Shown: positions 8,359-35,464 of the stretch, piece after piece | How positions within the stretch are numbered: the stretch's first letter is position 1 | Layout: each line of letters starts with the position of its first letter | Assembly: GCA_938010435.1 (NCBI GenBank) | Contig: CALLUS010000004.1 | Span: forward strand, 1-64,000 | Reading direction: 5' to 3' | DNA length: 64,000 bases | From: an uncultured Rhizobiaceae group bacterium | GTDB taxonomy: Bacteria; Pseudomonadota; Alphaproteobacteria; Rhizobiales; Rhizobiaceae | Made by a program: the position numbers and the translations under genes | Notes under the pieces: model-generated | Seen by the model: only the letters and a program-made list of their open reading frames with translations | Told to the model about the DNA's origin: nothing | Databases searched by the model: none

Positions 8359-8417
8359 CTCAGTATGTAGTCAATTCCGGTATGTTCAAATTTAAGGGAC
8401 CTGGAATCCCGTGTTCA

Positions 8418-18152: not shown

Positions 18153-18156
18153 GGGT

Positions 18157-19311
18157 TTACCCTCCTTTCACTGAACCAGCCAACAAACCGCGTACGAAAT
18201 AGCGCTGTAAGGAGAGGAAGACTGTCAGTGGAACAATAATTGTAATGAATGCAGAGGTGGCAAGGATTTCCCAATCACCGCCCCGTGTGCCAAGCAAATC
18301 TTTCAATGCGGATGTTAAAACCGTTTTAGTTTCGCCATCGCCCAAGAATACTTTTGCCACCAAAAGATCATTCCAAACCCAAAGGAATTGGAAGATCGCA
18401 AAGGAAGCCAATGCAGGTAGCGAAAGCGGCAGAACAATTTTGTAGAAAATCTGAAAATGGGTGGCACCATCTATCCGCGCCGATTCCATGATTTCACCTG
18501 GCAATCCGGCCATGTAGTTTCGCAATAAATAAATCGCCAAAGGCAAGCCAAACCCGGTATGGGCCATCCAAATGCCCCAATAGGATTTGGCGTCAATGCC
18601 GAATACATTGCCAATATCATTGTAAAGCGACAAAAGCGGGATGAGCGAAAGTTGAAGCGGAACAACCAGCAAGCCAACAATGGTTGCCGTGATCAAAGCG
18701 CGTCCCGGATATCGCATCCAGGCCAATGCATAAGCTGCAAATGCCGCAATCAATATAGGAATAAAAGTTGCAGGGATTGTTACCACTGCAGAGTTCAAAA
18801 ATGCCTGCCCAATACCATCGCGGGTGAACACGCGCTTGTAATTGTCGAGTGTGAAAATGGGTGGTTCGTTTGCCCGATACACAAAACGGGCATCGCGTGC
18901 GCGAGTGATTTCAGTTTCGCTTTCAAGTCGATATGTGCCATCAGATTGAACAATGACGCTGATGCCTTTGCGCAATTTGGCTGTTTCACCAGCTTCTGAT
19001 GTACCATCGCTTTCAAGTTTCTTTCCGGTGGATGCAAAACTTTCAACAACTGACTGTGAGCCTTCCAAGAAAATGCGACCCTCAGTGACCCACTTTCCAT
19101 CGACCAGTTTTTGTCCGGTGAGATTAGTAGGTACATGGCGTGCATTACGAGATGAACGGAACGGTGCTGTCCACCAGCCTGACGAAGAAATCTGAGCTTT
19201 GTCCCTGAAAGACGAAACTAGAATTCCAACGGTCGGCAGAGACCATATAATAACGAGCAAAAGAACAGTAAAGTGAACAGCAAGACGGCCGAATGTTGAG
19301 TTCCCCATCAT
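18157..19311 (-). CDS. aglG: Alpha-glucoside ABC transporter permease AglG
   Basis: 384 residues of the MalG type. A first transmembrane helix (FTVLLLVIIWSLPTVGILVSSF) is followed by an unusually long extracytoplasmic region of about 110 residues (SSGWWTAPFRSS to TLDNYKRVF), as seen in AglG proteins, and then five more helices. The EAA loop for contact with the ATPase is present (MESARIDGATHFQIFYKIVLPLSLPA, quoted in part). Its ATG overlaps the aglF stop by 4 bp, so the two permeases are translated together and form the membrane pore. Confidence 0.9.
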   Translation of the reverse strand: MMGNSTFGRLAVHFTVLLLVIIWSLPTVGILVSSFRDKAQISSSGWWTAPFRSSRNARHVPTNLTGQKLVDGKWVTEGRIFLEGSQSVVESFASTGKKLESDGTSEAGETAKLRKGISVIVQSDGTYRLESETEITRARDARFVYRANEPPIFTLDNYKRVFTRDGIGQAFLNSAVVTIPATFIPILIAAFAAYALAWMRYPGRALITATIVGLLVVPLQLSLIPLLSLYNDIGNVFGIDAKSYWGIWMAHTGFGLPLAIYLLRNYMAGLPGEIMESARIDGATHFQIFYKIVLPLSLPALASFAIFQFLWVWNDLLVAKVFLGDGETKTVLTSALKDLLGTRGGDWEILATSAFITIIVPLTVFLSLQRYFVRGLLAGSVKGG

Positions 19312-20342
19312 CCAGTCCCCTTATCTTGCGAAGCTTGCCGGATGTTCCAAATCATAATGGGAAGTACCGCGATCATGATGGTCAGTGCCACAACCGATGA
19401 ATACCCATCATGGTCTCCGCGCACTAACCAGAAGAACATATAATTGGCCAGCACCTGAGTGTCCCATTGGCCATCAGTCATCGTGAACACGATGTCGAAT
19501 ACTTTCAACACCAATATCGTAATAGTGGTCCAAACGACCATCACAGTTCCCATGATCTGGGGCACCATAATTTTCCAGAAGATTTGAAATCCATTGGCGC
19601 CGTCCAGAGTGGCAGCTTCAATGGTTTCTTCCGGGATGCCACGCAATGCGGCGGATAAAATAACCATTGCGAAACCGGTTTGAATCCAGATCAAAATAAT
19701 CATAAGGAAGAAATTGTTCCAAAACGGCATATCGATATAGGACGTTGGATCACCACCGAAAAATTGAACCACAGCGTTTAACAGGCCAATTTGTGTGTCG
19801 CCTGATTGAAACTCATAGATGAACTTCCAAATTACTGATGCGCCGACAAATGAAATTGCCATCGGAAGAAAAATAAGTGTCTTGGCAAATGTTCCCCACC
19901 AAATGCGGTCAGCCAGCACAGCGATGATCAAGCCAAGAAATGTGCAAGCCGCAGGAACAACAATAATCCACATCAAGTTGTTGCGAACAGCTTCCCAAAA
20001 GGCGGCTTGGGAAAACACAAATGCCCAATTGTTCAACCCGACAAAACTCTCCGAGTTCTTATCCAAGAACGAATTGAGAATGGTCATCACGAGTGGATAA
20101 AATAGAAACAGGCCAAGAAACAGCAGCGCTGGAAATAGAAACAACCAAGGGCGTATTGCGGAACGTCTGTTTTCGTTGTGAACGTTCAACTGATTGCCAG
20201 TGACATCACTGGGCAGGGCCTTATCAAGAATGACGTTCGCGCCCCAGAAATACCCGATGCAAACAACGATCCCCGCAACAATGGAAATAGAAGCAAAACC
20301 AATTTGCCCCCAAGCCGCTTGCGACAGACCAAACAGTTCCAT
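19308..20342 (-). CDS. aglF: Alpha-glucoside ABC transporter permease AglF
   Basis: 344 residues of the MalF/UgpA type with about seven to eight transmembrane helices; an extra N-terminal helix (FASISIVAGIVVCIGYFW) precedes the core, which starts at RPWLFLFPALLFLG. The EAA motif for ATPase contact is visible as EETIEAATLDGANGFQIF. It pairs with AglG. A gap of 135 bp separates it from aglE, which may allow the binding protein to be made in excess, as is common in such operons. Confidence 0.9.
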   Translation of the reverse strand: MELFGLSQAAWGQIGFASISIVAGIVVCIGYFWGANVILDKALPSDVTGNQLNVHNENRRSAIRPWLFLFPALLFLGLFLFYPLVMTILNSFLDKNSESFVGLNNWAFVFSQAAFWEAVRNNLMWIIVVPAACTFLGLIIAVLADRIWWGTFAKTLIFLPMAISFVGASVIWKFIYEFQSGDTQIGLLNAVVQFFGGDPTSYIDMPFWNNFFLMIILIWIQTGFAMVILSAALRGIPEETIEAATLDGANGFQIFWKIMVPQIMGTVMVVWTTITILVLKVFDIVFTMTDGQWDTQVLANYMFFWLVRGDHDGYSSVVALTIMIAVLPIMIWNIRQASQDKGTG

Positions 20343-20477
20343 GTGACGTCCCCGTTTTATAAATGCGTTACATCAATGCGTAATCTTCAAACCACCCGAG
20401 CGTGGTCAGAGCATCACGTATTTTCAGGAAAGAAAACGCAGCCGACCTGATTATGGCCAGCTACGTGAAATTTGGTT

Positions 20478-21833
20478 TTACTTGATGTCGTCCCAAGATT
20501 TCTGGATACCGTCAGCTATATCTTTTGCTGACTTGCCAGATACGAAATCCACCATTCCAGACCAGAACGTGCCGGCACCAATCGCACCGGGCATCAAATC
20601 AGAGCCGTCAAAGCGGAATGTTGTTGCGTTCAGTAAAATATCGCCCTGTGCCTTCATGGTCGCACTTGGATAAATGTCAGTGTTCACGCCTTTATGGGGT
20701 GTGAGGAAACCATTTTGCGCCATGTAGAGCTCATGGGAAAGAGGAGATTCCAAGAATTTGATAAACGCACGTGCACCTTTGGATTCTTTGGTCATTGCAA
20801 ACAATGTACCTGCACCCAAAACCGGATTTCCAAGTTCCTTCTTGGCCGCAAATGGCGGCATGTAGAAGAAATTCGCATCTTCACCCAATTTCGTACCCTC
20901 TGGGAAGAAAGCAGGAATGAACGATGCCTGTCGGTGCAGATAGCATTTTGGTGGTGTTGCAAACATACCTTTTGGGCTGTCGCGGAAATCAGTCGTACCA
21001 ACAGCGCTTGCACCACCATCAACATATTTGTCGTTCTTGGCAAAAGTGCCGAACGTTTCAATGGCAGCGACAACTTTGGGGTCATTGAACTTCAATTCAT
21101 TAGAAACCCATTTGTCGTAATCGGCTGGCGTTTGTGTGCGCAGCATAATGTCTTCCACCCAGTCCGTTGCTGGCCAGCCAGTTGCTGCACCCGAACCCAG
21201 ACCGATGCACCATGGTGTTCCACCATCAGCAACAATCTTGTCTGAAAGAGCGATCAACTCTTCCATGGTTTTTGGAATTTCATAATCCGCATCTTCAAAT
21301 GCATCCGGCACATACCAGACCAAAGACTTCACATTCACATTGTAAAACAAGCCGTAGAACTGATCAGCACCGCCTTTGTCCGCATAGGTTCCAAGGTCAA
21401 CCCAAGACTGCCCTGCCGCGTAATTGTCGAGAACAGATTTTTTGGCGTCTTCGCCCAGTGGAACCAACCCACCTTTGGCAGCCACGTTTGCAGCCAACCC
21501 GGGCTGCGGGAAAACCGCCAAATTTGGGGGTGAACCAGCTTCAACATCAATGTTGATCTGTTGTTCAAACGAATCTGACCCCGTGTATTCTACGTCAGCA
21601 CCCGTTAGTTCTTCAAAGATTTTGACGACACGTTCAAAATTGTCTTTTTCATTGCCCGTCCAGGGGCCGAACACGGTGATTTTTTCACCTTTGACATCCA
21701 TGGATTTAAATTGTTCAGCTTCAGCCCAATTGTAAGGGCCGGAACCGACAGTGATATTTGTATGACCATCTGCAAAAGCACTGCTGGTAGACAGCGCCAA
21801 AGCCACGATGCTGGTCGCGATTATATTCTTCAT
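20478..21833 (-). CDS. aglE: Alpha-glucoside ABC transporter substrate-binding protein AglE
   Basis: 451 residues from the ATG at 21833, which has GGAGGAAATA upstream; an in-frame start at 21878 would place 15 residues before the signal peptide. Residues 1-21 (MKNIIATSIVALALSTSSAFA) form a Sec signal peptide with cleavage at AFA|DG. The mature protein is a family 1 periplasmic solute-binding protein (KITVFGPWTG, VEYTGSDSFEQQI). It is the first gene of the operon and faces aglR across a 270-bp region holding two operator-like palindromes. Confidence 0.92.
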   Translation of the reverse strand: MKNIIATSIVALALSTSSAFADGHTNITVGSGPYNWAEAEQFKSMDVKGEKITVFGPWTGNEKDNFERVVKIFEELTGADVEYTGSDSFEQQINIDVEAGSPPNLAVFPQPGLAANVAAKGGLVPLGEDAKKSVLDNYAAGQSWVDLGTYADKGGADQFYGLFYNVNVKSLVWYVPDAFEDADYEIPKTMEELIALSDKIVADGGTPWCIGLGSGAATGWPATDWVEDIMLRTQTPADYDKWVSNELKFNDPKVVAAIETFGTFAKNDKYVDGGASAVGTTDFRDSPKGMFATPPKCYLHRQASFIPAFFPEGTKLGEDANFFYMPPFAAKKELGNPVLGAGTLFAMTKESKGARAFIKFLESPLSHELYMAQNGFLTPHKGVNTDIYPSATMKAQGDILLNATTFRFDGSDLMPGAIGAGTFWSGMVDFVSGKSAKDIADGIQKSWDDIK

Positions 21834-21925
21834 TATTTCCTCCACTAAAGCCCAATTTGGTTTTTGGGCAAAATTCATAAGTTGAGAGATGGTTGAAGCC
21901 AGAGCTCAAAATTCATACACTATTC

Positions 21926-21937
21926 CAAAGCGCTTTG
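21926..21937. promoter_or_regulatory. LacI-type operator upstream of aglE
   Basis: CAAAGCGCTTTG is a perfect 12-bp palindrome with the central CG step typical of LacI/GalR-family operators. It lies about 90 bp upstream of aglE in the aglE-aglR gap and has a close second copy at 22079-22090. AglR is the obvious ligand; binding is inferred. Confidence 0.65.
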
Positions 21938-22078
21938 AATTACTGTTAGGATGTCTTTGTGATCTGCATCTGTCAAGCACTGTATTAGCAAACTCATAAA
22001 TGCTGCGGTTTATTGATCGAAAATTTACCTGACGGAGTGAAAAGGTTGCATCTTATGGGGCGTTGTGTCGAAATGACT

Positions 22079-22090
22079 CAAATCGCTTTG
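22079..22090. promoter_or_regulatory. LacI-type operator upstream of aglR
   Basis: CAAATCGCTTTG differs from the perfect site at 21926-21937 by one base and ends 16 bp before the aglR ATG. Repression of aglR by its own product, with possible looping between the two sites 153 bp apart, is inferred. Confidence 0.6.
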
Positions 22091-22106
22091 AAATCCTTAT
22101 GATCGC

Positions 22107-23150
22107 ATGACTTCTGCCCCAATCAATCTCAAAAAACTGTCTGAAATGCTGGGTCTGTCACAAACAACCGTCAGCCGTGCGCTGAATGGTTTTCCTGAAG
22201 TGAGCGAAAAAACACGCGTGCGCGTGCGCGAAGCTGCTGAAGCATTGAACTATCGTCCAAGCCCAAGTGCAGCCAGTTTAGCTACAGGTAAAACACGGGC
22301 CATCGGTCATGTCATCCCCGTCTCCGAACACCGGATGATCAACCCGCACTTCTCGGATTTTCTGGCAGGTGCAAGCGAAGCCTATGCGGCCGCTGGATAT
22401 GACATGTTGTTGCGCATGGCAAATGCGGGAGAGGAAGAAGGTATCTATCGCGATTTTGCCAGCAGACGACGTGTGGATGGTGTTGTGGTCCATGGGCCAA
22501 AAACAATTGAGCCTCGCATTGATTTATTGAAGTCAATTGATCTGCCGTTTGTGGTTCACGGTCGATCCGGTTCTGACACAGACACCTATTCTTGGTTGGA
22601 CGTGAACAATCTCAATGCGTTTCAGCAAGGCACCCAATTATTGATTGATCAGGGACATTCTCAAATTGCACTCATAAATGGCCTGGAAAGCATGAACTTT
22701 GCATTGCGTCGCCGCGCAGGGTTTGAAGCTGCGCTTGAAGCAAATAATATTGCGTCTGATGCGCGCTATATTTGCAGCGCTGATATGACGGAGACTTATG
22801 GACATAATGCAACGCTTGCTCAGTTGAATCTTAACAATCCTCCCACAGCTTTGATGTTTGCATCAATTCTTCCTGCAATGGGCGGCGTTCGCGCATTGAA
22901 TGAACTTGGTTTGCGACCGGGGAAAGACGTTGCGGTCATCACCTATGATGATGAGTTGTCTTTTCTCCAATCACCAAACGGTAGGGATACACCTCCCTTT
23001 TTTACATCCATAAGTTCATCAATTCAGGCAGCCGGAAAACGTGTTGCTGAAATGCTCATCCAGCAAATTGACGATCCAAAACAAGATGCAATAAATGAGC
23101 TTTGGGAAGCGGATATTGTCCATGGAAAAACCACGCTCTCAACCAACTAG
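22107..23150 (+). CDS. aglR: LacI-family transcriptional regulator AglR
   Basis: 347 residues. The N-terminal LacI helix-turn-helix and hinge helix are clear (NLKKLSEMLGLSQTTVSRAL, then AAEALNYRPSPSAASLATGK). The rest is a periplasmic-binding-protein-like sugar-sensing core. It diverges from aglEFGAK, the arrangement found in Sinorhizobium, where AglR controls the alpha-glucoside genes. The two matching CAAA(G/T)CGCTTTG palindromes in the shared promoter region support autoregulation and control of aglE. The effector is probably an alpha-glucoside or a product of it. Confidence 0.9.
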   Translation: MTSAPINLKKLSEMLGLSQTTVSRALNGFPEVSEKTRVRVREAAEALNYRPSPSAASLATGKTRAIGHVIPVSEHRMINPHFSDFLAGASEAYAAAGYDMLLRMANAGEEEGIYRDFASRRRVDGVVVHGPKTIEPRIDLLKSIDLPFVVHGRSGSDTDTYSWLDVNNLNAFQQGTQLLIDQGHSQIALINGLESMNFALRRRAGFEAALEANNIASDARYICSADMTETYGHNATLAQLNLNNPPTALMFASILPAMGGVRALNELGLRPGKDVAVITYDDELSFLQSPNGRDTPPFFTSISSSIQAAGKRVAEMLIQQIDDPKQDAINELWEADIVHGKTTLSTN

Positions 23151-24227: not shown

Positions 24228-26024
24228 TTGATATCATCAGGTTCAGAGGCTGGTGAAGTTTCCACGGGCTGGGCAATACACCGGGCTGAGAAAGTGGTGT
24301 TGTTTGTCGATATCGTGGAATCTGTTCGTCTGATTGAGACTGACGAAGAAGGCACAATCAAACGATGGTTGGAACTGGTATCCCATATAAACTCTAAAAT
24401 TTTACCATCGGCTAACGGGCGGTCGGTGAAGAGTTCCGGTGACGGGATGCTGCTGGAATTCGATACGGTCAGAGAAGCGGTGCAAGCAGGGTTTGAAATC
24501 ATAAAAACCAATACCAGCATTAACGAACAGCAACACGGTGATAAAAGGATTCATCTTCGCATTGGTATTGATGCCGATGACGTCATCATCGAAAAGAACG
24601 ATCTCTATGGCCGTGGCGTTAATTTGGCCGCACGATTGATGGCGCTGGCGGGACACGATGAAATTGTCATTTCTGCGGGCGCGCGCGATCAACTGACCGC
24701 AGATTTGGATGCTGATATAGAGGATATGGGGGAATGTTATCTGCGCCATATCAGCGAATCTGTTCGTGCCTACCGCATTGGTCCCCCCGGTGTACGACAA
24801 GTTGTGCGCTCGGGCTTGTTGCGGGAAACGCTTGCCCCAACGATCGCTGTCATCCCCTTCAAAAGCCTTTTTGGCGACGTCGAACAGGATGTTTTGGGTG
24901 AAATATTGGCAGATGAATCGATTGCCGCTTTATCCCGTCATGCCGAGTTGAATGTGATTTCCAGATTGTCGACAACGACGTTTAGAAACAGAGAACTCAG
25001 CCAAGTTGAAGTATTCAGACATTTGAATGCGGACTATTCGGTTTCCGGTGTTTATCGATGTACCCACGGTGAAGTGTTGGTTGATATCGAACTGGCAAGC
25101 GCGCAAACCGGCAAGGTTATCTGGTCAGATCGTCTTAGAGAGCCCATCGAAGATGTTTTGAAGGGTGAGCAAAAGCTGGTCAATGAACTGGTGAAGAACA
25201 TTGGCCGCGCAATCATGTCACGCGAATTGCAATTGTCGCGATCTCAACCGCTTCCCACGCTTAAGGCATATACGTTGTTAATGGGTGCGATTGCTTTGAT
25301 GCATCGTCTGTCTCATTCTGATTTTGAGCGGGCACGGCAACTGCTTCACACGCTGCTGGAAAGAAATGGGAACGAACCTATTCCAAATGCATGGCTTGCA
25401 AATTGGCATGTGTTGCGGGTTCAACAAGGGTGGTCAATCGATCCCAAACAAGACGCTTATTTCGCACTAGAATGCACCAAACGGGCATTGGATGTGGACC
25501 CCGATTGTGACCTGGCGCTGGCGATTGACGGCTTTGTTCACACCAATCTACTAAAGCAATTTGATGTGGCCCAACGTAATTACGACATGGCGATAGATAT
25601 CAACCCAAATAGTGCTCTGGCTTGGCTTTTGCGCGGAACACTGCACGCCTTTAAAGGCGAGGGTTCAAGAGCGATTGAAGACACCCACAAGGCTCTGCAA
25701 TTATCCCCTTTAGATCCGCACAGTTATTTCTACGATGCGCTCGCCGCTTCCGCTTGCTTTGCTGGCGGTGAGTTTGAGCAGGCTGTGAGTTTAGCTCAAC
25801 GTTCTTTAAAGGCAAACCGAACCCATACTTCTACATTGCGCGTTCTTGGCGTTTCAAAATGGCAACTTGACCAACATGAAGAAGCCAAAGCGATCGGTTC
25901 AGAGCTGATGAAAATCGAACCCGGATTGACAGTTTCGGGTTGGCTGATGCGCGCACCTAGTGCAGACTTTAAAATTGGAACAGAGTTTGCTGATCTTCTT
26001 CGAAAGATTGGCGTACCAGAATAA
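24228..26024 (+). CDS. Class III adenylate/guanylate cyclase with TolB-like domain and TPR repeats
   Basis: 598 residues from a TTG at 24228 with GAGG upstream. Residues 20-185 are a class III cyclase catalytic domain. Both metal aspartates (Asp28 in LFVDIVES, Asp72 in KSSGDGMLLEF), Lys68 and Asp125 at the base-recognition positions, and Asn132 and Arg136 in GRGVNLAARL are present, so it should be active, most likely on ATP. Next comes a TolB/FlgO-like domain starting TIAVIPFKSL (about 203-330), then TPR units (ALAIDGFVHTNLLKQ, AWLLRGTLHAFKGEG). There is no obvious membrane helix. It precedes the GGF-repeat PAP2 gene by 41 bp and is probably cotranscribed with it. Confidence 0.85.
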   Translation: MISSGSEAGEVSTGWAIHRAEKVVLFVDIVESVRLIETDEEGTIKRWLELVSHINSKILPSANGRSVKSSGDGMLLEFDTVREAVQAGFEIIKTNTSINEQQHGDKRIHLRIGIDADDVIIEKNDLYGRGVNLAARLMALAGHDEIVISAGARDQLTADLDADIEDMGECYLRHISESVRAYRIGPPGVRQVVRSGLLRETLAPTIAVIPFKSLFGDVEQDVLGEILADESIAALSRHAELNVISRLSTTTFRNRELSQVEVFRHLNADYSVSGVYRCTHGEVLVDIELASAQTGKVIWSDRLREPIEDVLKGEQKLVNELVKNIGRAIMSRELQLSRSQPLPTLKAYTLLMGAIALMHRLSHSDFERARQLLHTLLERNGNEPIPNAWLANWHVLRVQQGWSIDPKQDAYFALECTKRALDVDPDCDLALAIDGFVHTNLLKQFDVAQRNYDMAIDINPNSALAWLLRGTLHAFKGEGSRAIEDTHKALQLSPLDPHSYFYDALAASACFAGGEFEQAVSLAQRSLKANRTHTSTLRVLGVSKWQLDQHEEAKAIGSELMKIEPGLTVSGWLMRAPSADFKIGTEFADLLRKIGVPE

Positions 26025-26065
26025 ATGGAGACAGGGGCATAATTTAAAACATAAAGGAAATTCCT

Positions 26066-27232
26066 ATGAGCAATTTAAAACCAGAATCAACTGCAGGTGG
26101 CTTCGGCGGCTTTGGTGGTTTCGGAGGCTTCGGTGGATTTGGAGGTTTCGGAGGGTTTGGGGGCTTTGGTGGATTTGGGGGCTTTGGTGGAGGACAATCA
26201 CCTGTTCTGGCTGAATCTCTCATAACCAATCACAATGGTATTGCTGGTTATTGGGAAGACATCACAGATGCTCCTGACCCACATTCGTTAAACGATCCAG
26301 ATAATTTGAAGCTTTGGTCTCCTTGGGTGCGGGCCAGCCTATATGATTTTGAAATATTCTCGAAAGTCGGGTTTTCCAGACCAACCAACGCAGCACGGAT
26401 GTCTGCCTGGCACCTTAATGTGTCCAACGCAGTCGGTAATGCGCCGCCGCCAACCCAATACTGTCCATTGATTTCGTTTGAACGTCCAAATGATGCTGTG
26501 TTTCTGGAGCAGCTACCGTTTATCAACCAATATGCAGCTTTGCGATCAGATCGGGGAGCAGAGATTTTGGCACAAATTGGTACACCAACCGATTTTCTAA
26601 GTACGATCGCTTTCATACACCCTGATCGTACGCCGTGGACTCTTGAATTGTTAAACGCGTCTTTGCGGTTAGCAAATTTTGTAGAAATGCGATTCAAACA
26701 TGCATTGGCGTGCAGAAGGCCTATTGAATTCTCATCTCAAATTCAGCCTATGATTTTAACGCCTGCGCACGGGACGTTGCCAAGCGGACATGCGACTGAA
26801 GCTTTCACGTCGGCCACAGTTCTTTGGCTATTGTTGCAAAACTCAAGTTCTTCTATCTATCAAAACAATATTGAATGGGGCACGCAGTTGATGCGACAAG
26901 CCTCGCGAATTGCAATCAATAGAACTGTTGCTGGTGTTCATTTCCCTGTCGATAGTGCAGCAGGTGCTGTGCTTGGTCTGACACTTGCACAATATCTCGT
27001 CAATCGATGTAAAGAAGCGAACGTCTACGAAGCATGGGATTTCAAAGGCAAGAAATTCTCAGGCGATTTTGATTGGCAGGCACTCTACGACATTCCAAAT
27101 CATAAACAGACGGACGGTAAAGCAGGGAACAAAACTTTTGCATCATCTGCGGGTGTGCACTCACTGACCCACTCGCCAACAAATTCCATACTGAACAAAC
27201 TTTGGGAAAATGCATTGTTGGAATGGAGTTAG
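26066..27232 (+). CDS. PAP2 / vanadium-haloperoxidase-like protein with N-terminal (GGF)10 repeat
   Basis: 388 residues with AAGGAA before the ATG. After a 10-residue leader (MSNLKPESTA) come ten perfect GGF tripeptides (residues 11-40), GGG, and then a helical domain with all three PAP2/vanadium-haloperoxidase motifs: Lys211-x6-Arg218-Pro219, PSGH with Ser240-Gly241-His242, and Arg286-x5-His292 with Asp296. These residues bind phosphate or vanadate. The surrounding sequence (WHLNVSNAVGNAPPPTQY, PSGHATEAF) looks more like soluble bacterial haloperoxidase relatives than membrane PAP2 enzymes, and no signal peptide or transmembrane helix is seen. Whether it is a phosphatase or a haloperoxidase cannot be told. 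Its stop lies 3 bp before the subtilase ATG, so the two are tightly linked. Confidence 0.8.
   Translation: MSNLKPESTAGGFGGFGGFGGFGGFGGFGGFGGFGGFGGFGGGQSPVLAESLITNHNGIAGYWEDITDAPDPHSLNDPDNLKLWSPWVRASLYDFEIFSKVGFSRPTNAARMSAWHLNVSNAVGNAPPPTQYCPLISFERPNDAVFLEQLPFINQYAALRSDRGAEILAQIGTPTDFLSTIAFIHPDRTPWTLELLNASLRLANFVEMRFKHALACRRPIEFSSQIQPMILTPAHGTLPSGHATEAFTSATVLWLLLQNSSSSIYQNNIEWGTQLMRQASRIAINRTVAGVHFPVDSAAGAVLGLTLAQYLVNRCKEANVYEAWDFKGKKFSGDFDWQALYDIPNHKQTDGKAGNKTFASSAGVHSLTHSPTNSILNKLWENALLEWS
26096..26185 (+). repeat. Ten 9-bp units encoding Gly-Gly-Phe
   Basis: Ten consecutive in-frame units each encode GGF. The codons vary freely: glycine by GGT, GGC, GGA and GGG, phenylalanine by TTC and TTT, so few units are identical at DNA level. 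The peptide is conserved while the DNA has drifted, which argues for selection on the protein and against a recent slippage expansion. Confidence 0.9.
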
Positions 27233-27235
27233 TCC

Positions 27236-29341
27236 ATGTCTATTAAATGGGAAAAAATATCGTATCCGGAAAAACGGGACATTGATCCGTACCTGATCTG
27301 GTCACTTGGGGCAGGTCGTGATTTCTTTTTGAGTGGAGATCAAAGAGACGGCGTAATTGCTGCGGTTCTAGAATTCAAAGATGGTGTAATGCCACGCGAA
27401 TTTTCTGAAGCCTATTACGCTTTAGAGAAGGGGCAGGAGCGGTTGCCACGGTTCCAGATCAGTCGAAAATACTCAGATGCCAGTCCGTTAAATGATGGCG
27501 TGACGGTCATTCCGATCATTGCTGATGTTGGATTTTTATCCTTGCTAGCCGATGATGAGCAGCTGAGTTCTCTAGCGCGGGCAACCGTGATTGGACCGCC
27601 ATTGCCAGAGGACGCAGTCAATTTTGCGTCGTCCGAACCTGAAACAATTGTTCCGCAAATTACCAATAAAAAGAAACCGCGCAAAGCTGTGGTTGGCATT
27701 ATCGACGATGGAATTGCCTTTGGGAACAAGCGTTTTCAATTGGCAAACAATACAACTCGTGTCGAATACGCATGGGTGCAGGATGGTGTGACGACTGGTG
27801 GGTCGTCGCCTGTGCAATATGGAAAAGAGTTTTCGAAAACAGGCGTTGGAGCAACAACAGGAATCGACCAATTGATTGCTGATTGCAGTACCAATGGTGG
27901 CTTTGATGAGGAGAAATTTTACCGATTGACTGGTCAATCCGATTTCTCTCGTGATGTTTTCAAAACAGTGGCTCTGCAGTCATCTCACGGAACCCACGTT
28001 ATGGATGTTGCTGCAGGCGAAAAGCCCGAAGACAATGTTACCGACAGGCCAATTGTGTGTGTCCAACTTCCAGCCACTGCTACAGCTGATACATCAGGTT
28101 CAAAATTCGACCCTTATGTTCTGGATGCAGTGCGCTATATCGTGGATCGAGCAGATCGTGTTGCAGCACGTGAGGGCAAAGGGCCTTTGCCCATTGTGAT
28201 CAATTTTAGCTACGGAATTGTAGCCGGACCTCATGATGGCACTTCATCATTGGAAATCGGGTTAGACCAGATCATAAACGCAAGGAGGGCATTTGCACCT
28301 GATGCTCCGCTGGAAATTGTTCTGCCTTCTGGCAATAGTCGTGAAAACCGAGTTCATGCATCCATAAATTTTGATCAAGCTGACAGTATTCAAAACCTCA
28401 ACTGGCGCGTGCCGCCAGATGATAGAACATCCAGCTTCACCGAGATTTGGCTGCCTTATCGTGATCCGGTCGCACCGCTTCCAAGCCGCATGGGGGCATC
28501 TTTGCAGTTCCCTGCCAATGGATCAGAAAGCCCGACTTTGCCCGAGGTGCACAACACGGGATACATCGGGTCTATAAACGGTGATCCAGTCTGTATGATT
28601 TTTTACCGCCGCGCCCCATTCCCGACGGATCGCGGGCAATATTTTATTGCACTTCTTCCAACAGCATTTCTCGACTCACCTTCCACTCTGGCACCATCAG
28701 GTGTCTGGAAAATAAAGCTCAAGAACACATCTTTGGACTGCAGTGAATTGGTTGAAACATGGATCCAACGCGACGACACGCCTTACGGATACCCCCAAAG
28801 GGGAAGACCATCTCATTTTGATCAACCCGATTATGAACGTTTCTCTGTCACTGGGCTTCCGATAACACATGACAATCCAGACTGCGTTGTGAAACGCGCT
28901 GGCACCATCAGTGCTTTAGCCACGGGTGAAGAAACAATCATTGTCAGTGGTGTCCAACGCCAAGATTTGAAAATGGCAAACTATTCCGCTGGCGGCCCCG
29001 TTTTGGCAAAACGTCAATTGCCTGTTGATCCGTTGCGACCTGATGTTGCTTCAATCAGTGATGATTCAAATGTGTTCCAAGGTGTTTTTGGATCGGGGAC
29101 ACGAAGTGGCTCAGTTGTTGTGTTGAACGGAACCAGTGTTGCAGCACCCGCCATTGCCAGATGGGTGGCCACAGAAATTGCCAACCACCGATCAGGTGAT
29201 CGAGAGGCCGTTCAAAAATTGGCAACGGATCAGGAAGCTGCACGTGCTCCACGTTTTGCACCTCAACCAATTTCGGAGCGGGCAGGCTGTGGTCGCGTTG
29301 AACTTCCCCCAATCTATCCGGTGGAACGATATGATGAATAA
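27236..29341 (+). CDS. Subtilisin-like serine protease (S8 family)
   Basis: 701 residues. The catalytic triad of subtilases is present: Asp157 in VVGIIDDGIAFG, His251 in SSHGTHVMDVAAGE, Ser634 in NGTSVAAPAIARW, and the oxyanion Asn367 in LPSGNSREN. About 150 residues precede the protease core and a large insertion (about 375-580) separates the oxyanion Asn from the Ser. No signal peptide or membrane segment is visible, so it looks cytoplasmic, which is unusual for this family. The gene starts 3 bp after the GGF-repeat PAP2-like gene, so they form a pair; the repeat tail or the enzyme is a possible substrate. The substrate is unknown. Confidence 0.87.
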   Translation: MSIKWEKISYPEKRDIDPYLIWSLGAGRDFFLSGDQRDGVIAAVLEFKDGVMPREFSEAYYALEKGQERLPRFQISRKYSDASPLNDGVTVIPIIADVGFLSLLADDEQLSSLARATVIGPPLPEDAVNFASSEPETIVPQITNKKKPRKAVVGIIDDGIAFGNKRFQLANNTTRVEYAWVQDGVTTGGSSPVQYGKEFSKTGVGATTGIDQLIADCSTNGGFDEEKFYRLTGQSDFSRDVFKTVALQSSHGTHVMDVAAGEKPEDNVTDRPIVCVQLPATATADTSGSKFDPYVLDAVRYIVDRADRVAAREGKGPLPIVINFSYGIVAGPHDGTSSLEIGLDQIINARRAFAPDAPLEIVLPSGNSRENRVHASINFDQADSIQNLNWRVPPDDRTSSFTEIWLPYRDPVAPLPSRMGASLQFPANGSESPTLPEVHNTGYIGSINGDPVCMIFYRRAPFPTDRGQYFIALLPTAFLDSPSTLAPSGVWKIKLKNTSLDCSELVETWIQRDDTPYGYPQRGRPSHFDQPDYERFSVTGLPITHDNPDCVVKRAGTISALATGEETIIVSGVQRQDLKMANYSAGGPVLAKRQLPVDPLRPDVASISDDSNVFQGVFGSGTRSGSVVVLNGTSVAAPAIARWVATEIANHRSGDREAVQKLATDQEAARAPRFAPQPISERAGCGRVELPPIYPVERYDE

Positions 29342-29352: not shown

Positions 29353-29844
29353 TCACTCGATAGAGGCACCCAGCACTGCCGTTTCTTTGACCGCTTCCAT
29401 TGAGACATAGGTGGACGTTTGTGCAACATGGGGCAAAGCTGAGAGCGTTTCTCCCAAAAGCTTTCGATAGCTCGGCATATCGGTTGTGCGGATTTTCAAA
29501 AGGTAATCAAAGCCGCCGGCAATCATGTGGCATTGTTCAACCTCGCCTTGTTTAGCGACAGCCTGATTGAACTCGGTGAGTGCGGATTGGCGCGTATCAG
29601 AGAGTTTAACTTCAACAAAGGCAATATGATTCAAGCCCATTTTCACCGGATCGATGAGCGCTCTGTATCCTAGAATATAACCTTCATTCTCAAGGCGCTT
29701 CACGCGGGCATGACAGGGTGTTTTGGACAGCCCTATGCGGTCTGAAAGATCGGTCATTGTCATGCGGGCGTCTGAACTCAGTGCTTGTAGTATTTTCAAA
29801 TCGAAACCGTCCAATTTAGATTTGAATGTCTGATTCATATTCAT
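29353..29844 (-). CDS. putR: Lrp/AsnC-family regulator of proline catabolism (PutR-like)
   Basis: 163 residues. The N-terminal helix-turn-helix (LDLKILQALSSDARMTMTDL region, SKTPCHARVKRLENEGYI) is followed by a RAM/AsnC effector domain (VEQCHMIAGGFDYLLKIRT). It diverges from putA across a 109-bp region with inverted TACGAAT-type half-sites. In Rhizobium and Agrobacterium an Lrp-like PutR activates putA in response to proline. PutA here lacks its own DNA-binding domain, which fits a separate regulator. Confidence 0.87.
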   Translation of the reverse strand: MNMNQTFKSKLDGFDLKILQALSSDARMTMTDLSDRIGLSKTPCHARVKRLENEGYILGYRALIDPVKMGLNHIAFVEVKLSDTRQSALTEFNQAVAKQGEVEQCHMIAGGFDYLLKIRTTDMPSYRKLLGETLSALPHVAQTSTYVSMEAVKETAVLGASIE

Positions 29845-29857
29845 ATTCTAAAAAACC

Positions 29858-29891
29858 ATTCGTATTTAGAGAAATTCACTTCATTACGAAT
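29858..29891. promoter_or_regulatory. Inverted half-sites in the putR-putA promoter region
   Basis: ATTCGTA at 29858-29864 and its exact inverse TACGAAT at 29885-29891 are centred 27 bp apart between the divergent genes. A looser copy, ATACGGAT, follows at about 29895. Lrp-family octamers bind several such phased half-sites, so this is a plausible PutR target. Confidence 0.5.
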
Positions 29892-29953
29892 ATCATACGG
29901 ATGAAATTGCTTGAAATAAATGCCAAAGTTTCCCGATATGGTAAGGAGCGCCA

Positions 29954-32900
29954 ATGATCTATTCTGCTATACTCAAGCCACTCTCGCCGGAAGATGAAGC
30001 TGTCGCTGCACTGTTGGCATCGTCTGCAATTGACGCAGACCTTCGAAACCGCGTTGGTGAACGCGCGGTAGAGTTAGTCGAGCGTATTCGCGAAGACAGT
30101 TCAGCCGGCATGATGGAACTCTTCTTGGGCGAATATGGATTATCCAGCGATGAAGGTGTCGCATTGATGTGTTTGGCAGAAGCGCTTTTGCGTGTTCCGG
30201 ACGGAGAAACAATAGACGCACTTATTGAAGATAAAATTGCACCCAGCGAATGGGGGCAACATCTAGGGAAGTCTCATTCTTCCTTAATCAATGCTTCAAC
30301 TTGGGCATTGTATCTGACAGGAAAGGTCCTGAAAGAGGATGATGTGAATCCTGTCAGTGGCGTTCTGCACGGCGCTATAAAGCGTTTGGGTGAACCTGTA
30401 ATCCGACAAGCCGTTACCCGTGCCATGAAAGAAATGGGTCGGCAATTTGTGTTGGGTGAGACCATTGAAAAAGCGATGGTACGCGCAAAAACCAAACAAG
30501 CGCAGGGCTTCACATATTCGTATGATATGTTGGGAGAAGCAGCGCGAACTGAAGCGGATGCAAGGCGCTACTTGCTGGCATATAGCGATGCGATTGGTGA
30601 ACTCGCACAACAAAGTACGTCGAAACATATTGCCGAAAATCCCGGTATTTCCATAAAGCTTTCAGCACTACATCCACGTTATGAGACACTCAAACGAGCG
30701 CGCGTTCTGGAAGAATTGGTTCCACGGGTTCAAACTCTCGCTGTGTTAGCAAAGACCGCTGGAATTGGTTTCAATATTGATGCCGAAGAGGCGGGTCGGT
30801 TGGAACTCTCGCTTGAGATTGTTGAAGCTGTTTTGCGCGATCCCGCTTTGAAAAATTGGGACGGTTTTGGAGTGGTGGTACAGGCCTATGGAAAGCGCGC
30901 ACCCGAAGTTATTGATTGGCTCTATGCATTGGCTGAAAGCTTGGATCGCAAGATCATGGTGCGTCTTGTGAAAGGGGCATATTGGGACACTGAAATAAAG
31001 TTGTCGCAAGTCGAAGCTCACGAGCACTTTCCGGTTTACACCCGAAAAGCTGCAACAGATGTGAGTTATATTTGCTGTGCTCAAAAACTTTTGGACATGA
31101 CAGATCGCATCTACCCGCAGTTTGCCACCCACAATGCGCACACTGTCGCTGCCGTATTGGAAATGGCTACTGATAAAACAGCCTTTGAGTTCCAACGGCT
31201 ACATGGCATGGGCGAAGCTCTCCATGAGACCGTACTGCGCCGTCAGGGAACGCGTTGCCGAATTTATGCACCTGTTGGTGCTCATAAAGACCTTCTGGCA
31301 TATTTAGTGCGCCGCCTGTTGGAAAATGGTGCCAATTCTTCGTTCGTGAACCAAATTGTCGATGAAGATGTGCCGCCTGCGCTTGTGACCGCCGACCCAT
31401 TTGAAATGTTTGTCGATGATGGCAGCCAAAAGCGCAAAACCAGCATTCGCCCACCCAGTGAGCTGTTTGCACCAGAACGTCGAAACTCAATGGGTTGGGA
31501 TATATCAGACCCAGCTACGTTGAATGATCTTGCTGATGCTGTTGCTCGAAATTCTGACCGTCAATGGAACATCGGTGTTGGTAGCGGCGATACAGTCAAT
31601 GTTTTGAACCCTGCATCAGGTGAAAAAATTGGGTCCGTTAAATATACGTCCGATAAAGACGCGGAGAAAGCATTTGACACAGCCCGACCATGGGCAGTTG
31701 CCGGCGACAAGCGTGCAGATATTCTACGAAAAGCGGCAGTCCTTTATGAAGACAATGCACACGAGATATTTTCATTGCTCATGCAAGAGGCCGGAAAAAC
31801 GCTGCTCGATTGTATAGGCGAGTTGCGCGAAGCTGTAGACTTCTTGCGTTACTACGCTGCGCAGGCTGAACAGATTACGGCACAATCAGCTGGTGTCTTT
31901 ACATGCATTGCGCCATGGAATTTTCCACTGGCAATTTTTACAGGGCAAATTGCTGCAGCACTCGCAGCGGGAAATGCCGTTCTTGCCAAACCTGCAGAAT
32001 CCACATGCTTGATTGGAAACCTGGCATCCCAACTTTTGTGGCAGGCTGGTGTACCCAAAAAAGTTCTCCACTATTTGCCGGGGACGGGATCAGAAATCGG
32101 TTCTCTGCTGACCCAAAACTCTAGTGTGAATGGCGTGTGCTTTACAGGGTCCACAACCACCGCAAAAATCATTGATCGCACTATGGCAAACCATTTGGCA
32201 CCGGACGCAGTGTTGATTGCGGAAACCGGAGGGCTGAACGCAATGATTGTCGACAGCACGGCTTTACCAGAACAAGCGGTTCGCGATGTTTTGGCTTCTG
32301 CATTCCAATCAGCGGGTCAACGATGCAGTGCTCTTCGTGTCCTCTATTTACAGCGCGATATTCAAGATCAATTTTTGGAAATGCTTTACGGAGCAATGGA
32401 TGAGTTGATGGTGGGCGACCCGCAAAATTTCAACACAGATATCGGCCCCATCATCAATGCAGAAGCCGCAGAAAAAATACGTGCTCACATTTCGCAAGCT
32501 GAAGAAAACGGGGGTTTACTGAAACAAAGTGCTGCACCATCCAATGGCAATTTCGTTGCTCCAACAGTTCTACGGATAAACGGAATTGAAGATCTGAATG
32601 AAGAAATTTTCGGTCCGGTACTTCATGTGGTGAGTTATGAAAGCAATGAACTTGACGCTGTGATAGCTGCAATTAACGCAACCGGATATGGACTAACATT
32701 TGGTCTTCACAGTCGAATTGATGACAAAGTTCAACACGTAACTGATAAAATCGAAGCCGGTAATATTTACATCAATCGCAATCAAATTGGTGCCGTTGTG
32801 GGATCGCAACCGTTTGGTGGAGAGGGATTAAGTGGAACCGGACCCAAAGCGGGTGGGCCGAGATATGTACCAAGATTCTTAGCAAGCAAAAAGAATTATG

Positions 32901-33388
32901 TGTCGGGTGAAGCCATTGGTGATCTGTCGATAGAGACGGTTGAGAAAATGTTTTCCGATCATCCCCCAAGACATGCTGATGCAAATGAACAGGCCAATTT
33001 ACCGGGTCCTACTGGAGAATCCAATCTTTACAGCATACAGCCACGCAAGAGGATTTTGTGTTTAGGGCCCACTTTAGCTTTGGCGCAAGAACAAGCAGAT
33101 CGAGCCCGCGCTGTCGGCTGTCACGCGATCGCACTGGGCGGTGAGATTAAAGCCAGTACGCATGACCTCCCATCCTTAAATTGTTTGGCAAATATTCCAA
33201 ATTTGGATGGTGTGGTCTGTTTTGCTGAAGACTTAAAACCGCTACGTATGGCTTTGGCAGAGCGAGAAGGTCCGATTGTTCCTCTTCTATGTGATTCAGA
33301 TTTCGAGTTTTGGTTGATGAAAGAACGGCATGTTTGTATTGATACAACCGCAGCGGGTGGCAATGCGTCTTTGCTTGCGGGTGAATAG
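29954..33388 (+). CDS. putA: Bifunctional proline dehydrogenase / L-glutamate gamma-semialdehyde dehydrogenase PutA
   Basis: 1144 residues with AAGGAG before the ATG. The first half is the FAD-dependent proline dehydrogenase barrel (ISIKLSALHPRYE, IGFNIDAEEAGRLELSLE, VRLVKGAYWDTEIK, FATHNAHTVAAV). The second half is an NAD-dependent aldehyde dehydrogenase (APWNFPLAIFTGQIAAALAA, CFTGSTTTAKII, catalytic Cys in SAGQRCSALRVLYL, IFGPVLHVV). It converts proline to glutamate with channelling of the intermediate. It lacks the N-terminal ribbon-helix-helix of E. coli PutA, so it is not a self-repressor. The short C-terminal part (about 970-1144) is the usual extra domain of trifunctional-length PutA, poorly conserved. 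Confidence 0.95.
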   Translation: MIYSAILKPLSPEDEAVAALLASSAIDADLRNRVGERAVELVERIREDSSAGMMELFLGEYGLSSDEGVALMCLAEALLRVPDGETIDALIEDKIAPSEWGQHLGKSHSSLINASTWALYLTGKVLKEDDVNPVSGVLHGAIKRLGEPVIRQAVTRAMKEMGRQFVLGETIEKAMVRAKTKQAQGFTYSYDMLGEAARTEADARRYLLAYSDAIGELAQQSTSKHIAENPGISIKLSALHPRYETLKRARVLEELVPRVQTLAVLAKTAGIGFNIDAEEAGRLELSLEIVEAVLRDPALKNWDGFGVVVQAYGKRAPEVIDWLYALAESLDRKIMVRLVKGAYWDTEIKLSQVEAHEHFPVYTRKAATDVSYICCAQKLLDMTDRIYPQFATHNAHTVAAVLEMATDKTAFEFQRLHGMGEALHETVLRRQGTRCRIYAPVGAHKDLLAYLVRRLLENGANSSFVNQIVDEDVPPALVTADPFEMFVDDGSQKRKTSIRPPSELFAPERRNSMGWDISDPATLNDLADAVARNSDRQWNIGVGSGDTVNVLNPASGEKIGSVKYTSDKDAEKAFDTARPWAVAGDKRADILRKAAVLYEDNAHEIFSLLMQEAGKTLLDCIGELREAVDFLRYYAAQAEQITAQSAGVFTCIAPWNFPLAIFTGQIAAALAAGNAVLAKPAESTCLIGNLASQLLWQAGVPKKVLHYLPGTGSEIGSLLTQNSSVNGVCFTGSTTTAKIIDRTMANHLAPDAVLIAETGGLNAMIVDSTALPEQAVRDVLASAFQSAGQRCSALRVLYLQRDIQDQFLEMLYGAMDELMVGDPQNFNTDIGPIINAEAAEKIRAHISQAEENGGLLKQSAAPSNGNFVAPTVLRINGIEDLNEEIFGPVLHVVSYESNELDAVIAAINATGYGLTFGLHSRIDDKVQHVTDKIEAGNIYINRNQIGAVVGSQPFGGEGLSGTGPKAGGPRYVPRFLASKKNYVSGEAIGDLSIETVEKMFSDHPPRHADANEQANLPGPTGESNLYSIQPRKRILCLGPTLALAQEQADRARAVGCHAIALGGEIKASTHDLPSLNCLANIPNLDGVVCFAEDLKPLRMALAEREGPIVPLLCDSDFEFWLMKERHVCIDTTAAGGNASLLAGE

Positions 33389-33414: not shown

Positions 33415-34206
33415 CTATTTTGGTTTCACACGCGCTGCTGTTTTATCTGCAAAAGCGGCCAGTCTTTCGTTAGATGCCGGTTGGGTGTTCACAACGCCAG
33501 CCACAAAAGCTTCCATATAAGAAGCATCAAGAGCAGACATATTCCGCGTGTGAGAAATCGCTGAACAGATTGCAAAATTGGAGAGCGGCGGCACCTCTGC
33601 GGTTGCTTTGGCAAGTTCCATTGCTTTGGTTTCACTGTCGTCCACCAAATATTGGCACAGGCCAACGGTAACCGCCTCTTCGTCTTTGTAAATGCGACCT
33701 GTCAGCATCATGTCTGTCATGCGTGCACGGCCAACCATTTCTGCTACACGGATGGTGGCGCCACCGCCGGTGAACAAGCCGCGTTGTCCCTCAGGCAAAG
33801 CAAAATAAGTTGTGTTGTCCGCAACTCGGATATGAGCTGACGAAGCAAGTTCCAGCCCACCGCCCACAACAGCACCCTTCAGAGCTGCAATAATCGGAAC
33901 GCCGCCATATTCCATTTTGTTGAACGCTTCATGCCAACGCAAACACACATGCATGAAGTCAGCAGCACTGCGTTCTTGTTTGTGATGTTCGACCAGATCC
34001 AGACCTGCAGAAAAGTGATCCCCTTCGGCGCGCAGCACAACAGCTCGTGCACCAGTCCGCGGCATGGCGGCGAACACATCTATGAGCTCTTCAATAGTTT
34101 CAGCGTTCAGTGCATTACGTTTAGCGGCGCGATTTAAGCTGACAATTGCAATCTCCCCATCCGTGTCCATCGTAAGGTTGTTTAACTTTAAGGATGGTAG
34201 TTCCAC
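33415..34206 (-). CDS. Crotonase / enoyl-CoA hydratase family protein
   Basis: 263 residues from a GTG at 34206 with AAGGAGACACAAC upstream. Crotonase landmarks are [10 protein letters not shown] (oxyanion hole), [22 protein letters not shown] with one catalytic Glu, and [17 protein letters not shown] with the second Glu position. Both catalytic glutamates are present, so hydratase activity is possible. It lies 43 bp downstream of the DmdA-like gene on the same strand. In DMSP demethylation the later enzyme DmdD is a crotonase acting on methylthioacryloyl-CoA, so that role is a candidate, but many other crotonases look alike at this resolution. Confidence 0.83.
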
Positions 34207-34249
34207 GTTGTGTCTCCTTGAAATGCAGTTCGCTGCACAGAAAATTAGT

Positions 34250-35353
34250 TTACAAAAATGGTAGCTCTACAAGTTTTGCAGCAACAGCCTTCCCAGATCG
34301 AACGACTTCTACACTGTCACCAGACTTGTAGGAAGTTGAAATCAGGGCATACCCGATATTGCATTTCATGCGAGGCGACCAAACGCAGTTTGTCATATTG
34401 CCAATTGAAGCCCCATTCTTTTCAATACGATCCCATGCAAACTCAAGAGGTGCGGGCGTTTCACCTTCCAAAACCAGTCCCAATTGATGACGCTGCGGCC
34501 CTTCTTTATTGATCTTCCGCAATGCTAGAATTCCAACCACATCATCCGCCACATCGAGATCGACATACTTTCCAAGCCTCACTTCGAAAGGGTTCGTTTT
34601 ATCGTCTGTATCGCCACCAACAGAAACCAAGCCACTTTCAGTGCGTTCTGCAGTGGTTGGCGCACCCGGGCCAATGCCCCAAGGTTGTCCTGCTTCTTTG
34701 AAGATATTCCACAATTGGACGCCTTTCGTCCCGTCACGCAGATAAATTTCATACCCGCCTTGTTTGGACCAACCAGAGCGCTGAACAGCCACTGGAATCC
34801 CTTCAATCTCAACTTCCTTGAACCAGAAATATTTAAGGTCACGTACCCAGTCGCCACACACATGGGCAACCACATCTTCTGCTTTGGGTCCTTGAATAGC
34901 CATGGGCGAGACATCGGGTTCGGTAATATCAACATCCAGTCCGCGTTCGGCCGCAATCGCCCTTGCCCAAAACCATATATCGCTATCAGCAATGGACATC
35001 CAATAGAGATCATCTGCCAATTTTAACAAGATCGGGTCATTGATAAGGGTGCCCTGATGGTCGCAAAGAGGCACATATTTCCCCTGCCCAATTTTGCATT
35101 TAGACAGGTCTCTTGGAGAGAGAATTTGCGCCAGCTTTCCGGCATCAGGGCCTTTTAATTGAACTTGACGCTCAACACCCACATCCCATTGGGAAACACC
35201 TTCAATAATGCGCCAATATTCCGCATCACGGTCACCATAACTCGACGGCATAATCATGCGATTGTAGATGGAGGCGCCTGTCATCCCATCGGCAACTGCG
35301 GCTGCATAAAATGGCGAAGGTCGCAAACGCGCGGTTGGGAAGACAGAAAACAT
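34250..35353 (-). CDS. GcvT-family aminomethyltransferase, DMSP demethylase (DmdA)-like
   Basis: 367 residues from the ATG at 35353; a TTG two codons earlier is less likely. The fold is that of glycine-cleavage T-protein, a tetrahydrofolate-dependent methyl or aminomethyl transferase. [72 protein letters not shown] and [14 protein letters not shown] match the DmdA-type branch better than housekeeping GcvT. DmdA moves a methyl group from dimethylsulfoniopropionate to THF. No gcvH or gcvP lies nearby, which speaks against glycine cleavage. A crotonase follows and a LysR regulator diverges upstream. Related GcvT-like demethylases of other substrates cannot be excluded. Confidence 0.65.
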
Positions 35354-35464
35354 GGTCAAAGTCTTTAGTGGTTGAGGCTTTGATCATTTCCAATTTTGCA
35401 ACGACAATTACAAATGACGAATTTTAACCCAATGCCTAAATTCTAGTTATGGCGAGTTTTTCAA

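Follow-up and report, generated by a model that had tools for sequence, protein, structure and literature searches.

In the RRNPP(A) systems, some of which have tandem pheromones (PMC11343458), a TPR-type receptor adjoins a gene with several copies of a short peptide, and proteolytic processing takes part. A second line of comparison is provided by designed repeat proteins (2023), which bind tripeptide-repeat peptides unit by unit through superhelical matching (PMC10115654). A locus that invites comparison with both lies at 24228-29341 of a 64,000-nucleotide stretch of DNA (hereafter the window; contig CALLUS010000004.1 of assembly GCA_938010435.1, positions 1 to 64,000) from an uncultured Rhizobiaceae group bacterium. 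It comprises a regulator with a predicted class III cyclase front and a TPR rear, a PAP2/haloperoxidase-like enzyme that begins with a tandem GGF repeat (the tag), and an S8 subtilase. These three genes are a conserved module of Alpha- and Betaproteobacteria, the tag is conserved as a repeat and not as a sequence, and the identity of the tag varies in step with the regulator's TPR half.

Unlike the RRNPP(A) systems, the module is found in Proteobacteria, is apparently intracellular, has its peptide fused to an enzyme in many copies of units of 2-7 residues, and has a cyclase or winged helix as output. The repeat stands at the front of an enzyme of 388 aa that has no hydrophobic segment; since there is no separate small secreted propeptide, the module falls outside the RRNPP family. 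The designed binders share with it a proposed physical principle, which in the module would be natural and diversified. Pycsar PycC likewise has a class III cyclase, whereas the module regulator has a TPR rear, a cyclase replaceable by a winged helix, and a PAP2 enzyme and a protease as partners; a PADLOC scan of the three module proteins alone gave a weak PycC match and no effector among them. With vanadium bromoperoxidases and class A acid phosphatases the enzyme shares a complete PAP2 motif and a PxHxxxPSGHAT loop that aligns with 1qi9, but it carries the tag and a conserved LW...E C-terminus in addition. The closest solved relatives of the protease by profile are the Csp germination subtilases (9sj6, E=2e-26; 4i0w, 1e-16), from which it differs in lacking a spore context and in having its own N-terminal region. 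The component folds are already known; to our knowledge, no described family has an enzyme-borne, locus-specific tandem tag. A full-text literature search (subscription papers are mostly outside its coverage) returned no paper describing the module, nor is it described where PMC12419801 deals with PAP2 and TPR.

Conservation of the three-gene module

Two sets of loci were surveyed. Set A consists of 70 loci, 49 of them canonical (enzyme profile above 200 bits). Among the canonical ones are six of Phaeobacter type whose enzyme cores are 95% identical or more, L101 being a broken copy, as well as L105, also broken. Set B consists of 100 new loci taken best first, 60 of the 110 Rhodobacteraceae-type places and 40 of the 43 Burkholderiaceae-type places; of these 110 and 43 places, seven and two respectively were already in set A. 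Both family names are inferred from named plasmid hosts. Together the sets hold 149 loci counted as canonical, one of which (L265) scores 190.

The enzyme and S8 genes adjoin at 147 of the 149 loci, and both misses lie at contig ends (the S8 start runs off the contig in L038, and L254 is at a contig edge). The regulator is present at 148, of which 146 were found by script, with partial genes at some contig ends, and two by eye (L191 and L193, where it lies on the far side of S8, past the script range); the one miss, L226, is at a contig end. The proposal of the earlier note that the three genes form a module is therefore strongly supported. The regulator gene belongs to the conserved neighbourhood, but its cyclase front is often replaced by a winged helix. 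Nor is the repeat tract unique to one strain, as it recurs elsewhere with a sequence that differs by locus.

Among 297 genomes of the order, the enzyme was matched in 32 (E<=1e-5), 20 places reaching 2e-30. For the matching S8 family (E<=1e-100) this sample gave 21 places. The enzyme adjoined 19 of these; the remaining two were a fragment on a separate contig (G199) and a gene truncated at a contig end, beside what by eye is a transposase-like open reading frame (ORF) (G122). Seven distant S8 relatives from the order search (E 8e-24 to 6e-44) had no tagged gene nearby. One match (G204) was rejected as an unrelated protein with a GGY tract. At E<=1e-50, 91 of 394 genomes from the Rhodobacteraceae-type alphaproteobacterial family and 42 of 299 from the Burkholderiaceae-type family of the same phylum contained the enzyme.

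Thirty-five plasmid records were also matched, 21 from Phaeobacter and others from Rhizobium, Paracoccus, Roseibium, Caballeronia, Paraburkholderia, Microvirga and Terrarubrum. Where these records carry annotation, gene 1 is labelled winged-helix, cyclase or hypothetical, gene 2 as 'phosphatase PAP2 family protein' and gene 3 as 'S8 family serine peptidase' or hypothetical. Broken copies were seen on Phaeobacter and Parasedimentitalea plasmids (L101, with regulator and S8 fragmented; L105, with enzyme and S8 fragmented), and the copy on a Paracoccus zhejiangensis plasmid (L112) lies near the type VI secretion ATPase gene tssH.

A tag conserved as a repeat

Under a strict rule (four or more perfect copies of a unit 2-6 residues long), tags were found in 137 of the 149 canonical loci. 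They begin no more than 30 residues from the ORF start in 119 of the 137, and in the remaining 18 the start of the longest ORF is probably placed too far upstream. Longer or imperfect repeats were recognized by eye in L260 (GGIGRN), L261 (GIGRTA), L263 (GGVGPY), L264 (GGHSAGI), L169 (GGQGAY), L176 (AAF) and L253, which the rule misses; it also misses L226 and L246 (contig edge), the broken L105, L247, where a computed repeat was discarded as an artefact, and L250, in which there is no repeat, which brings the misses to 12.

Over the 145 strictly tagged loci, non-canonical and near-duplicate loci included, there are 89 distinct units, with a median of eight copies and a period of three residues in 114, four in 23, two in six, five in one and six in one. 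Glycine occurs in 113 of the tags. The chemistry of the other residues is unconserved, the units including GGF, GNY, NAE, AGR, DAR, NK, GGH, TAM, NSQ, GGI and more. A minor branch carries an internal tag (NK in L047 and L093) or a C-terminal one (SL in L044). In set A, 59 of the 70 PAP2 relatives adjoin a regulator and 56 of these pass the strict rule, the other three being L044 with its short C-terminal repeat, L094 (GGNWF x3) and the broken L105; none of the 11 PAP2 relatives without a regulator has a tag. Relatives of the regulator were matched in 13 of 20 further genomes, and within 1.5-kb flanks of 30 such places the only tagged gene was that of L136, which is the L094 module itself.

The DNA beneath the GGF tract is an imperfect repeat, with eight different 9-mers among its ten units. 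Neighbouring units share codons less often than in slot-preserving shuffles, both in set A (201 vs 245, z -4.6, 25 tracts) and in set B (723 vs 892, z -8.9, 89 tracts). At lag two, sharing is in excess (z +4.5 in A, +2.2 in B); at lag three there is no excess in A and one of z +2.5 in B. In set B, all 89 tracts depart from a perfect repeat at the DNA level. Two tags from Rhizobium encode the same amino acids with 10 of their 19 codons different, and in Phaeobacter species the copy number is 5, 6 or 7 around a constant unit. Units are the same in pairs with at least 76% enzyme-core identity and different in several pairs at 62-68%. We read the codon pattern as an exact peptide being kept while a slippage-prone repeat is avoided, or as growth by two-unit steps. 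The tag is under selection.

Fourteen genomes contain two or three modules and no two of their strict tags are alike, which is not counted as evidence because chance pairs rarely share a unit. On contig C26 of the genome to which the window belongs lies a second module (L023, 6211-11387), with the tag GNY x8 and a divergent winged-helix regulator.

Co-variation of the tag with the TPR half

The set-A test covered 42 loci with a strict tag and all three genes, five near-duplicates having been dropped; the set-B test covered 83 of the 100 loci, the 17 others being dropped for want of a strict tag, for a missing or short partner, as an artefact or on score. With the enzyme core regressed out, both the TPR half (r 0.29, p 0.002) and the TolB-like middle part of the regulator (r 0.25, p 0.008) were correlated with tag similarity in set A, and none of the four S8 parts was (p 0.18 or more). 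When core and S8 were controlled together in a joint alignment, the TPR half still tracked the tag in set A (r 0.25, p 0.006), and this was repeated in set B (r 0.21, 0/2000 permutations), in its Rhodobacteraceae part (r 0.12, p 0.004) as well as in its Burkholderiaceae part (r 0.59, 0/2000). Tag identity thus co-varies with the TPR half beyond what is shared with the enzyme core and the protease. The corresponding values for S8, with core and TPR controlled, were 0.01 in A, 0.06 in B (p 0.05) and -0.02 in Burkholderiaceae. Among the 17 cyclase-class regulators of set A the TPR-tag correlation reached 0.58 (p 0.005).

The best TPR columns, with all three similarities controlled, were 436, 475, 505, 474, 535 and 504 (r 0.31-0.18), corresponding in a hand-set TPR register to positions 8, 13, 6, 12, 2 and 5. 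In the relevant passages of PMC1261162, Magliery and Regan give TPR positions 2, 5, 9, 12, 13, 33 and 34 as the most variable and 2, 5, 6, 9, 12 and 13 as the contact positions of HOP. Five of our six columns (positions 13, 12, 6, 5 and 2) are among the ligand contacts named there. A contact-position test gave p 0.022 in set A and p below 0.0001 in Burkholderiaceae, and a post hoc count with the HOP set placed eight contacts among the top 20 columns (p 0.015).

Among the 34 nearest unlike pairs (core identity 0.35-0.65), F436 went with the GGx member 24 times to 0 (p 1.2e-7, the best of 9316 column-residue tests). The best p by part was 1.2e-7 for TPR, 3.8e-6 for PAP, 5e-4 for the TolB-like part, 5e-4 for the S8 catalytic part and 0.03 for the S8 N-terminal part. 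The combination F436/F475/L505 was present in 31 of 34 GGx loci, compared with 7 of 91 others. Nearest-neighbour prediction of the tag at core identity below 0.6 succeeded at 0.56 from the TPR half vs 0.49 from the core and 0.49 from S8, a modest gain.

A proposed mechanism and its alternatives

At a probability of roughly 0.5, we propose an intracellular control module in which the tag docks in the TPR groove of the regulator and the protease acts on the tagged enzyme or the tag to reset the pair. The locus-specific tandem oligopeptide at the N-terminus of the enzyme would be an address tag, lying in the concave groove of the neighbouring regulator's TPR solenoid, repeat peptide against repeat protein. 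The output of the regulator, which would be cyclic-nucleotide synthesis by the class III cyclase here and DNA binding by the winged helix in many relatives, would be linked to whether its own enzyme is present, or to the state of that enzyme, and a dedicated cytoplasmic protease may act on the tagged (or docked) enzyme, or on the tag, so that the pair is switched or reset. Physical binding, the direction of control, cleavage and the enzyme chemistry are what we infer in this scheme.

More tentatively, and short of an even chance, the tags may amount to a natural address code, each private tandem oligopeptide being read by its matching TPR solenoid and kept separate from those of paralogous modules within one cell (GGF and GNY here), with the protease resetting the docked pair or making intracellular peptide signals from the tag. 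Such diversified peptide-TPR recognition in Proteobacteria would have a partly readable code (F436/F475/L505 with GGx). If true, it would be a natural case of what designed repeat proteins do in reading a tandem tripeptide, spread over 89 distinct units; it could supply orthogonal tags and a code by which TPR grooves recognize their ligands, and genes annotated only 'phosphatase PAP2 family' and 'S8 family serine peptidase' would gain a role.

A number of observations weigh against the control-module proposal. Permutation and matrix tests remove shared ancestry only in part, and set B, although it does not overlap set A, was chosen best first and holds some close relatives of set-A loci. With the core alone controlled, S8 also follows the tag (A r 0.17, p 0.02; B 0.17, 0/2000), and in Rhodobacteraceae its link to the tag persists when core and TPR are both controlled (r 0.21, 0/2000). 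For the 25 winged-helix regulators of set A the TPR-tag correlation is not significant (r 0.04, p 0.28), and S8 given the core reaches r 0.20 (p 0.014) in that class. From these results by set, family and regulator class, the TPR half is the more consistent partner of the tag but not the sole one. S8 columns 158, 682 and 512 score 0.27-0.23, close to the TPR columns, and enzyme column 236 is also high (0.19), so that column values alone are not decisive. The top column, 436, is at position 8 in the register used, which is no canonical contact; the contact-position test gave p 0.18 in B, 0.35 in Rhodobacteraceae and 0.07 overall; and a column of the enzyme, W87, likewise discriminates GGx (p 3.8e-6). 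One locus (L250) has regulator and protease and no tag repeat, and no protease was seen next door by eye at L092 and L044, where no family search was made. Set A shows a slight excess of whole DNA units that are identical to their neighbour (21 vs 15.4 expected). Finally, AlphaFold2 runs on the window enzyme and protease, with one relative each, returned predicted local distance difference test (pLDDT) values of 29 and 32.

Rather unlikely, though the best placed of the rivals, is a protease-substrate pair only, in which the tag is a cleavage or recognition cassette, the protease trims or destroys the enzyme, and the TPR regulator just controls expression. A protease adjoins nearly every locus and its slot is held by different proteases, comprising the main S8 family, other S8 proteins (L043, L047) and, by Pfam, a Peptidase_A4 in L046. 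BLAST relatives were found in L093 and L091, the L091 protein being related to the Peptidase_A4 of L046; an A4/G1-like protease instead of S8 is thus present at two loci, L046 and L091, with the tags AGN and TGN. Processing of the tail by the protease, as the earlier note suggested, is possible in the light of the S8-tag co-variation of Rhodobacteraceae, but that co-variation is near zero in set A and in Burkholderiaceae once core and TPR are controlled, and L092 and L044 have a tag and a regulator without a visible neighbouring protease.

It appears improbable that the protease cuts the tag into unit peptides that serve as ligands of the TPR regulator, in the manner of a Gram-negative RRNPP-like system. 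A TPR protein, a multicopy peptide and a subtilase do adjoin, units are exact within a locus and different between loci, as expected if every copy must signal, and propeptides that contain tandem pheromones occur in known RRNPPA systems (PMC11343458). The tagged enzyme, however, has no hydrophobic signal, its units are mostly of three residues, and the carrier is a whole enzyme. Were the tag a processed signal, the module would become a distant variant of the peptide-TPR theme.

The patchy distribution, plasmid copies, variable element and weak PADLOC matches (PycC 1.3e-6, IetS 0.0027) would suit an anti-phage or conflict module with a tag-gated PAP2 effector. We hold this to be very unlikely: no enzyme match was obtained in 50,697 phage records at E 1e-5, and most genes around the module, in the window as on the Phaeobacter plasmids, are metabolic or hypothetical, no systematic defence-gene scan having been made. 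On viral contigs, 13 loci match the enzyme profile, weakly and in part (26-37% identity), and the single distant S8 match there (23%) has no tagged gene beside it.

The control-module proposal also has to be set against self-association, which the earlier note had raised for the GGF tract. Condensates or fibres of the enzyme driven by a Gly/Phe-rich tract would agree with the low-complexity, aromatic character of the window tag, but acidic, basic, polar and aliphatic tags occur as well (NAE, AGR, DAR, NK, GGI, NSQ); because no sticker chemistry is conserved among them, the idea is highly unlikely. The earlier interpretation as a whole is partly supported. A neutral low-complexity tract produced by replication slippage has a negligible chance of being correct, the variable copy number in Phaeobacter and the slight excess of identical neighbouring units being outweighed by neighbouring-unit codons that differ beyond chance in both sets, by the lack of any perfect DNA repeat in set B and by purely synonymous changes between the tags of close relatives, so that the codon tests largely contradict it.

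The three proteins

The features of the locus are collected in Table 1. The genes are closely packed on the plus strand with gaps of 41 bp (gene 1 to gene 2) and 3 bp (gene 2 to gene 3), as the ORF coordinates confirm. A Pfam scan of the three window proteins identified Guanylate_cyc and TPR in gene 1, PAP2 in gene 2 and Peptidase_S8 in gene 3.

Table 1. Features of the tagged-enzyme locus in the window.
Feature	Position	Strand	Basis or remark
Gene 1, regulator	24228..26024	+	598 aa, TTG start
Predicted class III adenylate/guanylate cyclase domain, residues 24-173	24297..24746	+	Pfam PF00211, E=3.5e-8, 33.7 bits, cut-off 21.9
TPR half, residues 340-598; co-varies with tag	25245..26021	+	Pfam TPR, co-variation tests
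Regulator columns best tracking the tag unit: F436, A474, F475, A504, L505, S535	25533..25832	+	column tests
Gene 2, soluble enzyme, PAP2/haloperoxidase-like, tandem tag at the N-terminus	26066..27232	+	388 aa
Tandem tag (GGF)10GG, residues 11-42	26096..26191	+	codon-diversified
PAP2 catalytic domain, residues 196-312: K211, R218-P219, H235, PSGH239-242, R286, H292, D296	26651..27001	+	Pfam, alignment
Gene 3, cytoplasmic-looking S8 subtilase	27236..29341	+	701 aa
S8 catalytic Asp157	27704..27706	+	invariant 20/20
S8 catalytic His251	27986..27988	+	invariant 20/20
S8 catalytic Ser634	29135..29137	+	invariant 20/20

The TPR rear is constant among module regulators, and the front is either a class III cyclase or a winged helix. 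By Pfam, 53 module regulators gave Guanylate_cyc (PF00211) in 19, Trans_reg_C in five and BTAD in two; in set A, 24 of 59 fronts are like the window cyclase, 26 are like the winged helix of L030 and nine are like neither (E<=1e-3). The class III cyclase domain noted earlier in the window protein gives a PF00211 match above cut-off; the stress sensing that the earlier note suggested for it is hypothetical, and in many relatives a winged-helix front replaces it. For the middle region, the name TolB-like is the earlier label; Pfam scans of module regulators contained no TolB match and returned FlgO (10/53) and LpoB (2/53) instead. The regulators of L078 and L105 have by eye an OmpR-type winged-helix front, still match the cyclase part weakly (E 2e-8 and 2e-4) and are possibly intermediates between the two types.

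Vanadium haloperoxidases are characterized by the motif K-x6-RP, PSGH and R-x5-H-x3-D, which is complete in the gene 2 product. K211, R218, P219, P239, H242, R286, H292 and D296 are invariant in all 21 aligned relatives, S240 is kept in at least 90% of them and G241 is substituted in some, so the vanadate/phosphate-binding motifs noted earlier are present with their key residues intact. H235, also invariant in 21/21, stands seven residues ahead of the PSGH histidine in a loop aligned to bromoperoxidase 1qi9, at the position of the second histidine of bromoperoxidases. Compared with solved structures, the enzyme profile best matched acid phosphatase 7f17 (2e-17), followed by LpxE 6ebu (2e-10) and bromoperoxidase 1qi9 (2.4e-9). 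A PxHxSYPSGHAT-type loop is common to the enzyme and the matched structures, and in the 1qi9 alignment the active-site loop is bromoperoxidase-like.

The subtilase triad reported in the earlier note is intact, and N367 is likewise invariant in 20/20 relatives. Across the 49 canonical loci of set A, mean hydropathy over 19 residues never exceeds 2 in an enzyme or S8 protein (maximum 1.99), for which reason both look cytoplasmic; this fits the apparent lack of a signal peptide in the window subtilase.

Neighbouring genes in the window

Downstream of the module, at 29353-33388, an Lrp/AsnC regulator is divergent from a bifunctional PutA. It is followed at 33418-35359 on the minus strand by a gene resembling dimethylsulphoniopropionate (DMSP) demethylase (NCBIfam 375.6 bits, below the cut-off of 410), which adjoins a crotonase-family gene; the two are possible DMSP demethylation genes. 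Upstream, at 16449-23150, are genes that by eye are ABC-transporter-like, a glycosidase named BglA by NCBIfam and a LacI regulator. The stretch 4000-12000 has a lower guanine plus cytosine content (0.39-0.41 vs mostly 0.45-0.49) and is a possible island; within it, a 758-aa ORF at 4597-6870 has a start that by eye resembles a winged-helix regulator.

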